From Verrucomicrobiia bacterium (lineage in GTDB: Bacteria > Verrucomicrobiota > Verrucomicrobiia > Limisphaerales > UBA11358): DNA of 51,246 nt. The DNA is taken from positions 1 to 51,246 of the forward strand of contig JANWKE010000020.1 of assembly GCA_025451535.1 (NCBI GenBank), given 5' to 3'. The notes beneath the pieces are model-generated. The model was not told the origin of the DNA. It made no database searches and saw nothing but the letters and a program-made list of their open reading frames with translations. Positions 5,085-6,680 of the stretch are shown here, one piece after another. The first letter of the stretch is position 1, and each line of letters starts with the position of its first letter. The translations under genes and the position numbers were made by a program.

Positions 5085-5332
5085 GAAAACAGCCGGATGG
5101 ACATGGTGATGAGGTCCGGCAGAGCGCACAGGCACAAGCTAACAGGCCGCGGCCGCAGATGTCATTGTGAAACCATGCGAAAGCGAGGCATCCAAAAGTG
5201 CGAGCTCAACGAAAACGTGGAAGCCGTGAAATAACAATGTTGCGGCAGTCTGTGACCGCGCCTTTCTTCAATTCGCGATGCTACCGGCGCTGGACATGGA
5301 TGACTCATTTTGAAAACATGCCCTGGATCTTT

Positions 5333-5707
5333 ATGTTTGAGCACCGCTCAAAACCATTGCTGCCGCGCCGGCAATTTTACGTACGCCTGGCCCGGAGCGC
5401 GGGTGTGGCCCTGCTGCTCGTCGTGTTCGCGCTGGGCATCGGGATGGCGGGTTACCGCAGCTTTGAGCCGATGTCGTGGGTGGACGCCTTTGTCAACGCG
5501 GCGATGATTCTCTCCGGCATGGGGCCGGTGTCCTCGTTGCAAACCGATGGGGGCAAAATTTTCGCCGGTTGTTATGCGCTCTTCAGCGGCCTGGCGTTCC
5601 TCACGAGTCTCGGGATTATTTTTGCGCCGGTGTTCCACCGGTTCCTCCATAAGTTTCATGTGGAGGAAAGCCGGCGCGACGCAAAACCGCCGGGCAAACT
5701 CTTGTAA
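5333..5707 (+). CDS. Two-helix membrane protein resembling a K+ channel pore
   Basis: 124 residues from ATG 5333. There is a basic N terminus, one helix (VALLLVVFALGIGMAGY), a re-entrant-looking segment (WVDAFVNAAMILSGMGPV) and a second helix (CYALFSGLAFLTSLGIIFAPVFHRFLHKFH). This order matches the pore module of small potassium channels, where a filter such as TVGYG follows the pore helix and a hydrophobic inner helix comes next. Here the filter position reads SGMGP, so potassium selectivity is doubtful. In-frame codons continue up to 5198 but the extra N terminus looks non-coding. Function unknown. Confidence 0.6.
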   Translation: MFEHRSKPLLPRRQFYVRLARSAGVALLLVVFALGIGMAGYRSFEPMSWVDAFVNAAMILSGMGPVSSLQTDGGKIFAGCYALFSGLAFLTSLGIIFAPVFHRFLHKFHVEESRRDAKPPGKLL

Positions 5708-5822: not shown

Positions 5823-6680
5823 ATGCTGTGGGCATTTACCAAGTATCACGGGCTGGGCAACGACTACCTTGTCATTGACCCGAAGAACCTGCCGTCGCCG
5901 CTGACGGCGGCGCAGATCAAGACGATTTGTCATCGCAATTACGGCATCGGTTCGGACGGCATCCTGCTCGGGCCGCTGCCCGCCAAAACGGCGAAGTTCG
6001 CAGTGCGCATCTTCAATCCCGACGGCAGCGAAGCGGAAAAGAGCGGCAACGGCCTCCGGATTTTTTCACGTTACCTGTGGGACAAGAAACTGGTCGGCAA
6101 GGACGAGTTCGCCGTTGAAACCGCCGGCGGTATGGTGAAGGCCACGGTGATGGAACGCGGCAAAATTGTGCGCGTGGAGATGGGCAAGGTCAGCTTCTGG
6201 AGCGACGAGATTCCCGTGGCCGGCCCGCGCCGCGAAGTCATCAACGAACCGATTCATCTGCGCGGTGAACGATTCAACTTCTGCGCGGCCACCGTGGGCA
6301 ACCCGCATTGCGTGCTGCCGATGCCCAGGATCAGCCCGGAAATTGCGAAACAGATGGGCCCGTTGCTGGAAACGCACCTGCGTTTTCCCAACCGCACCAA
6401 TGTGCAATTCATGCGGGTGATGGACCGGAACAACATCCAGATTGAAATCTGGGAGCGCGGCGCGGGCTACACGCTGGCGAGCGGCAGCAGCAGCAGCGCG
6501 GCGGCGGCGGTAGCGCACCGGCTCGGCCTGTGCGATCGCGAGATTTCCGTGCACATGCCCGGCGGCATTATTGAAATCGAAATTGGCAACGATTACGCAA
6601 TTCGCATGACCGGCGCGGTGGCCAAAGTGGCCGACGGCGTGATCGCGAAGGAAATGTTCAGCGCGCCCATCGCGGCTTAA
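5823..6680 (+). CDS. dapF: Diaminopimelate epimerase homologue with both catalytic cysteines replaced by serine
   Basis: 285 residues covering the whole DapF fold: KYHGLGNDYLVID at the N terminus, RNYGIGSDGILL, RIFNPDGSEAEKSGNG, ATVGNPHCVL and ERGAGYTLASGSSSSAA. DapF interconverts LL- and meso-diaminopimelate with two active-site cysteines, one directly before GNG and one in the ERG..T.ACG motif. Here the first is Ser74 (EKSGNGLR) and the second Ser220 (TLASGSS), both encoded by AGC. The substrate-binding framework is otherwise retained. Either serine supports a slower or different reaction, the enzyme acts on another substrate, or the protein has lost activity. The gene stands alone behind its own promoter. 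The symbol reflects family membership, not proven activity. Confidence 0.85.
   Translation: MLWAFTKYHGLGNDYLVIDPKNLPSPLTAAQIKTICHRNYGIGSDGILLGPLPAKTAKFAVRIFNPDGSEAEKSGNGLRIFSRYLWDKKLVGKDEFAVETAGGMVKATVMERGKIVRVEMGKVSFWSDEIPVAGPRREVINEPIHLRGERFNFCAATVGNPHCVLPMPRISPEIAKQMGPLLETHLRFPNRTNVQFMRVMDRNNIQIEIWERGAGYTLASGSSSSAAAAVAHRLGLCDREISVHMPGGIIEIEIGNDYAIRMTGAVAKVADGVIAKEMFSAPIAA

Follow-up and report, generated by a model that had tools for sequence, protein, structure and literature searches.

A widespread DapF subfamily with serine at both catalytic cysteine positions, and its probable role as a diaminopimelate epimerase

The window analysed here is a stretch of 51,246 nucleotides from a Verrucomicrobiia bacterium of the order Limisphaerales (GenBank assembly GCA_025451535.1, contig JANWKE010000020.1). 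At positions 5823..6680 on the forward strand it carries a coding sequence, stop codon included, for a 285-residue homologue of DapF, the diaminopimelate (DAP) epimerase, which has serine where both catalytic cysteines belong. DapF is well known as an enzyme that works with two thiols; it is also a target for antibacterials, and mechanism-based inhibitors attack its cysteines. The gene's upstream neighbour (5198-5707, forward strand) encodes a small predicted membrane protein; its conservation in this position extends to many loci, both same-genus and related (24 matches, 57–88% identity). The original prediction held that the gene keeps its own promoter, for which we found no backing: the sole sigma-70-like match in a promoter scan lies about 485 bases upstream, within another open reading frame.

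The first serine, Ser74 (codon AGC, 6042..6044, forward strand), lies in the context AEK-S-GNG and corresponds to Cys73 of Haemophilus influenzae DapF and Cys83 of the Corynebacterium glutamicum enzyme; the second, Ser220 (AGC, 6480..6482, forward strand), lies in ERGAGYTLA-S-GSSSS and corresponds to Cys217 and Cys221 respectively. The nearest solved structures are DapFs (E 1e-55), with their catalytic cysteines aligned opposite Ser74 and Ser220, although no close relative of the protein was found among solved structures. In a profile scan the protein scored 240.5 bits against the DapF model TIGR00652 (cut-off 114.65) and 64.5 bits against NF038284, the DapF/glutamate racemase model, which is below the cut-off of 350; the ncbifam scan returned these two DapF models only, and no proline racemase or hydroxyproline epimerase profile. 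By profile, then, the protein is a DapF, although it lacks the two catalytic cysteines expected of one. An AlphaFold2 model (pLDDT 79.7) again had DapFs as its top Foldseek matches (E 2e-25; VIA Z about 20), and indicates that the two-domain DapF fold is retained. The rmsd of 6–8 Å in these comparisons suggests that the two domains are opened differently in the model than in the DapF structures.

The substitution is characteristic of an entire class. An aligned set comprised 129 distinct Ser/Ser and 71 Cys/Cys sequences and no mixed ones; every relative at or above about 47% identity was Ser/Ser (129/129) and every more distant one Cys/Cys (71/71). A search of 59 relatives yielded a protein 63–95% identical to that of the window from 33 same-genus genomes and from five additional families of the order, and all copies with residues read were Ser/Ser; in another sixteen families of the order the DapF is Cys/Cys and 30–34% identical to the window protein. 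An independent scan of 84,980 species genomes, using patterns away from the active site that did not include the serines, recovered 80 loci, and all 80 were Ser/Ser. These belong to Verrucomicrobiota (subdivision 3 and Opitutae), Nostocales, Desulfobacterales, other Deltaproteobacteria and Planctomycetota. The same-genus copies and these independent loci together exclude chance or a sequencing error at codons 74 and 220. Within the phylum itself, 49 of 240 genomes, counting that of the window, had a best match of at least 50% identity by the search's own measure; three of the 49 (G202, G306 and G273) gave a second match besides the one counted here. When sampled proteins were re-checked with tblastn, all at or above about 47% identity were Ser/Ser and all at or below about 39% were Cys/Cys. 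In a tree built without the catalytic columns the Ser class occupies one side of a branch of length 1.76 with 100% SH-aLRT support, and the window protein is only about 30–40% identical to any Cys-DapF. Searches of the open-access literature turned up neither a paper nor an assay on a natural Ser/Ser DapF, and there was no structure of one among those solved. The Ser/Ser branch is a widespread, uncharacterised subfamily of diaminopimelate epimerase.

In Deltaproteobacteria and Desulfobacterota genomes the Ser form occurs as the sole DapF. Nostocales genomes (G059-G076) possess two DapF genes, one Cys/Cys and one Ser/Ser, and one of them, G076, has three. The canonical Nostocales copy scores 316–325 bits and the Ser form about 241–257, and the latter has no constant neighbour gene. 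Both types are also found in one Desulfobacterota genome (G405). Where the two coexist, in the Nostocales and in this genome, the Ser form possibly has a different role.

Further residues distinguish the classes. Lys73 (6039..6041, forward strand), directly before the first serine, occurs in every Ser-class sequence (129/129) and in no Cys-class one (0/71), the Cys class having Met there, rarely Thr or Ile; Ser223 (6489..6491, forward strand) is likewise invariant (129/129), against glycine in 71/71. Glu208 (6444..6446, forward strand) is found in 127/129 (98%) and replaced by arginine throughout the Cys class (71/71). Tyr216 (6468..6470, forward strand) is also found in 127/129 (98%) and never in the Cys class, which has Glu or Ile there; the two exceptions have Asn, for which reason we rejected Tyr216 as an essential base, and one of them (L142) sits in a dapF-dapA-dapB operon. 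The Ser class also has Ile80, where 68/71 of the Cys class have Cys, and Gln195, where the Cys class has Glu or Asn. A relocated catalytic pair was also considered, as the Ser class conserves Cys36 and Cys163, and was rejected: both cysteines are common in the Cys class too (46/71 and 45/71).

Codon usage and substitution rates confirm the earlier view that this is not a decaying copy. In the Ser class, codon 74 is AGY in 111 sequences and TCN in 18, while codon 220 is AGY in 49 and TCN in 80. Passage between AGY and TCN requires two changes, hence serine is actively kept at both positions. The dN/dS ratio of the window gene against its five closest relatives is 0.07–0.15. The original prediction also took the rest of the enzyme to be intact, and this is supported. 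Alanine mutants of N15, N74, N85, N159, N194, E212, R213 and T223 abolish the activity of C. glutamicum DapF (PMC5296763); the same eight positions in the window protein are N13, N65, N76, N160, N193, E211, R212 and S222. The DAP-binding set (five Asn, Glu, Arg and Ser/Thr), including the residues for the distal amino-carboxylate, is fully kept.

The genome containing the window (4.40 Mb, 97.9% complete, a draft of 188 contigs) has no second DapF, with cysteines or otherwise, above the Pfam family cut-off. A third, weak PF01678 match on contig C60 (3490-3744; L052:454-1395, reverse strand) was rejected as an extra DapF: it is a proline-racemase-family protein resembling 4-hydroxyproline epimerase, with the usual cysteine at both catalytic motifs and a score of 417 bits, just below the cut-offs for that enzyme (442). 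The pathway on either side of the epimerase is in place. The window's genome has DapL, as do most members of the genus; DapB was found in 18/18 genomes tested, and LysA, whose substrate is meso-DAP, in 20/21. A bypass through meso-DAP dehydrogenase (Ddh) was rejected, as TIGR01921 had no match in any of 21 genomes. The proposal that the cell needs another way to meso-DAP is thus disfavoured. One member of the genus (G034; 2.3 Mb, 94% complete) is without LysA (best 115 bits, cut-off 297.9) and retains DapL, DapB and Ser-DapF, which suggests a lysine auxotroph that has kept DAP for its wall.

Gene order in relatives links the Ser form to lysine and DAP synthesis. Ser-dapF heads a same-strand dapF-dapA-dapB cluster at eight loci (L135, L142, L132, L145, L148, L154, L176 and L198) and in three further genomes (G045, G049 and G053), and appears in the order lysC-dapB-dapA-dapF at another (L200). 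Cys-DapF families of the same taxonomic order (L314, L315, L316, L320 and L323) have Cys-dapF in this slot, next to DapA proteins that are 61–78% alike. Across the sister families this Cys-dapF is only about 33% identical to Ser-dapF, with the neighbouring DapA and DapB 61–83% alike. A tree of DapA and DapB from 23 genomes requires about five changes of dapF type (4–6 over bootstraps) and rejects a single clade of Cys families (p-AU 0.0225); several deep forks of this tree are unresolved, and the evidence is correspondingly modest. Repeated exchange of the Cys and Ser forms in one operon slot is as expected from functional equivalence. The window's Ser-dapF is not next to dapA-dapB; that pair is on a different contig of the genome (C58, L324).

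Chemical data are available for a cultured organism. The genome that we take as Opitutus terrae PB90-1 (G187) has one DapF match, which is Ser/Ser with the full class signature. GC/MS detected DAP in O. terrae and in three Lacunisphaera strains, at levels about tenfold below those of E. coli (4 nmol/mg in O. terrae vs 63 in the E. coli control, a measurement that does not resolve the isomers), and thin-layer chromatography showed no DL-DAP in the Lacunisphaera strains (PMC5303756). The Lacunisphaera genome is listed as containing LysC, Asd, DapA, DapB, DapL and DapF (PMC5303756).

Taken together, we consider it probable that the window gene is the cell's LL-DAP epimerase, belonging to a separate, thiol-free subfamily of DapF, in which the serines would likely act as acid and base and Lys73 might assist. 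We infer all three parts of this reading: that the protein is active as an epimerase, that its serines are the acid/base pair and that Lys73 contributes. The evidence for the epimerase role is much stronger than that on which residues act as bases. LL-DAP from the DapA-DapB-DapL route would be converted to meso-DAP for lysine and peptidoglycan. The substrate would be gripped by the same Asn/Glu/Arg set as in DapF, closure of the cleft would expel water, and the two serines, Ser74 and Ser220, facing the alpha-carbon from opposite sides, would take and give back the proton. Lys73, Glu208 (for Arg), Tyr216 and Ser223 may adjust the active site to allow catalysis by a hydroxyl; Lys73, for instance, could lower the pKa of Ser74 or itself share the role of base.

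Canonical DapF works with two thiols, one as thiolate and the other as thiol, within an active site that is closed and dry (PMC12039745). The C67S and C209S mutants of the related histidine racemase HisR are greatly impaired (PMC11602996), and Cys-to-Ser mutants of DapF are hindered enough to serve for crystallisation (PMC12039745). A Ser/Ser site therefore needs compensation, for which the class-specific residues are natural candidates. In favour of serine, a Ser/Cys enzyme of the proline racemase superfamily is a working 4-hydroxyproline epimerase, so that serine can be acid/base in this fold, and the precedent cited in the original prediction stands; a Ser/Thr enzyme of the superfamily is a dehydratase (PMC4113996). 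Against the epimerase reading are the presence of both types in Nostocales and one Desulfobacterota genome, the separation of Ser-dapF from dapA-dapB in the window's own genome, and the low DAP of O. terrae together with the lack of DL-DAP on chromatograms of Lacunisphaera.

Of the other explanations, the one we rate highest is that the Ser enzyme, as a DAP epimerase that is slow or proof against oxidation, is kept for conditions in which a disulfide would disable the Cys pair. Under H2O2 a disulfide between the catalytic cysteines inactivates C. glutamicum DapF (PMC5296763); a Ser/Ser site cannot form this bond, a possible advantage. Nostocales, which produce oxygen, carry both forms. However, Deltaproteobacteria and Desulfobacterota, many of them anaerobes, include genomes with the Ser form as their one DapF. 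We rate the idea as unlikely, and it adds to the epimerase reading more than it opposes it.

It is less likely again that the protein is a DAP epimerase in which Lys73 above all, or Tyr216, transfers the proton while the serines only shape the site. Lysine directly precedes Ser74 in the whole Ser class and nowhere in the Cys class, and there are parallels elsewhere: the two bases of PLP-dependent alanine racemase are a lysine and a tyrosine, and lysines act in the enolase-type racemases. However, Ser74 and Ser220 are equally invariant and outlast switches of codon class, and Tyr216 gives way to Asn in two members, including L142 with its dapF-dapA-dapB operon. In cyanobacterial and plant DapF none of the residues in this loop hydrogen-bonds directly with the ligand (PMC12039745).

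The original prediction raised the possibility of a new racemase, isomerase or binding protein. That the protein has another substrate or reaction, as a new racemase, dehydratase or binding protein, with meso-DAP made otherwise, now seems distinctly improbable. Within the proline racemase superfamily, swaps among Cys, Ser and Thr do alter the reaction catalysed (PMC4113996); both types coexist in Nostocales, and DAP is scarce in O. terrae. Yet every residue of the set that binds the distal amino-carboxylate of DAP is present, Ser-dapF fills the dapF slot of dapF-dapA-dapB operons and swaps there with Cys-dapF, and LysA is present although no Ddh was found in 21 genomes and no second DapF in the window's own. 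A pseudogene, sequencing error or binning artefact might be suspected in a draft assembly of 188 contigs, but this reading is scarcely credible: the motifs recur unchanged in 129 distinct relatives, drawn from several phyla and assemblies and including finished genomes, and dN/dS is 0.07–0.15.

Comparison with known systems places the window protein closest to DapF (TIGR00652; EC 5.1.1.7; H. influenzae 1BWZ/2GKE, C. glutamicum 5H2Y, Anabaena 9MRO), with which it shares full-length homology, a two-domain fold, all DAP-binding residues and an operon slot beside dapA and dapB; it differs in both catalytic residues, in Lys73, Glu208, Tyr216, Ser223, Ile80 and Gln195, and in forming a separate clade with 100% support. 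The catalytic-serine epimerase of the proline racemase superfamily shares the fold and uses serine for the first catalytic cysteine as acid/base, but has one serine, one remaining cysteine and another substrate, whereas the window protein has serine at both positions. The histidine racemases CntK and HisR and the O-ureidoserine racemase DcsC (7VDY) have a DapF-like fold as the window protein does; they are Cys/Cys enzymes with other substrates, and Cys-to-Ser mutants are nearly inactive (PMC11602996). The bifunctional DapF/glutamate racemase of Chlamydia (NF038284; PMC5885031) belongs to the DapF family and to the wider Planctomycetes-Verrucomicrobia-Chlamydiae group, and the window protein is unlike this type, scoring far below its model's cut-off.

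Thiol-free chemistry has not yet been described for DapF. A large natural Ser/Ser subfamily in the dapF slot, often as the sole DapF, means either that hydroxyls can transfer the proton or that the acid/base pair has been missed. Annotation pipelines name these Ser/Ser proteins DapF, overlooking the absent catalytic residues. We see as evenly balanced the stronger proposition that this is a cofactor-independent two-base epimerase acting at an unactivated alpha-carbon without any thiol, through a Ser/Ser pair perhaps activated by an adjacent lysine. On this view the Ser form has repeatedly taken over from thiol DapF in the same operon position, and neither oxidation nor inhibitors directed at thiols, aziridino-DAP among them, would affect it.

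A separate observation concerns the Mur ligases of these bacteria. The window's genome has only three genes of the Mur-ligase type, MurF, Mpl and FolC, on contigs C22 (L075) and C125 (L076:6208-7602, reverse strand); three are likewise present in G001, G003, G005, G012, G019, G034 and G045, and two in G043. MurF lies in the dcw cluster, and Mpl scores 466 bits against TIGR01081 (cut-off 388.7), the murC model being below its own cut-off. MurC, MurD and MurE were not found in the window's genome and those sampled relatives; MurI is absent from sampled members of the genus, with a weak match only in the window's genome. The whole UDP-MurNAc-tripeptide ladder seems to have been lost, with Mpl and MurF kept, and this implies that the tripeptide is either salvaged or made by an unknown synthase. 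In interest this loss may equal or exceed the Ser/Ser DapF. A causal tie between Ser-DapF and the loss of MurE and MurI was rejected, because both are also missing in Cys-DapF genomes. Genomes G046 and G049 possess a full Mur set.
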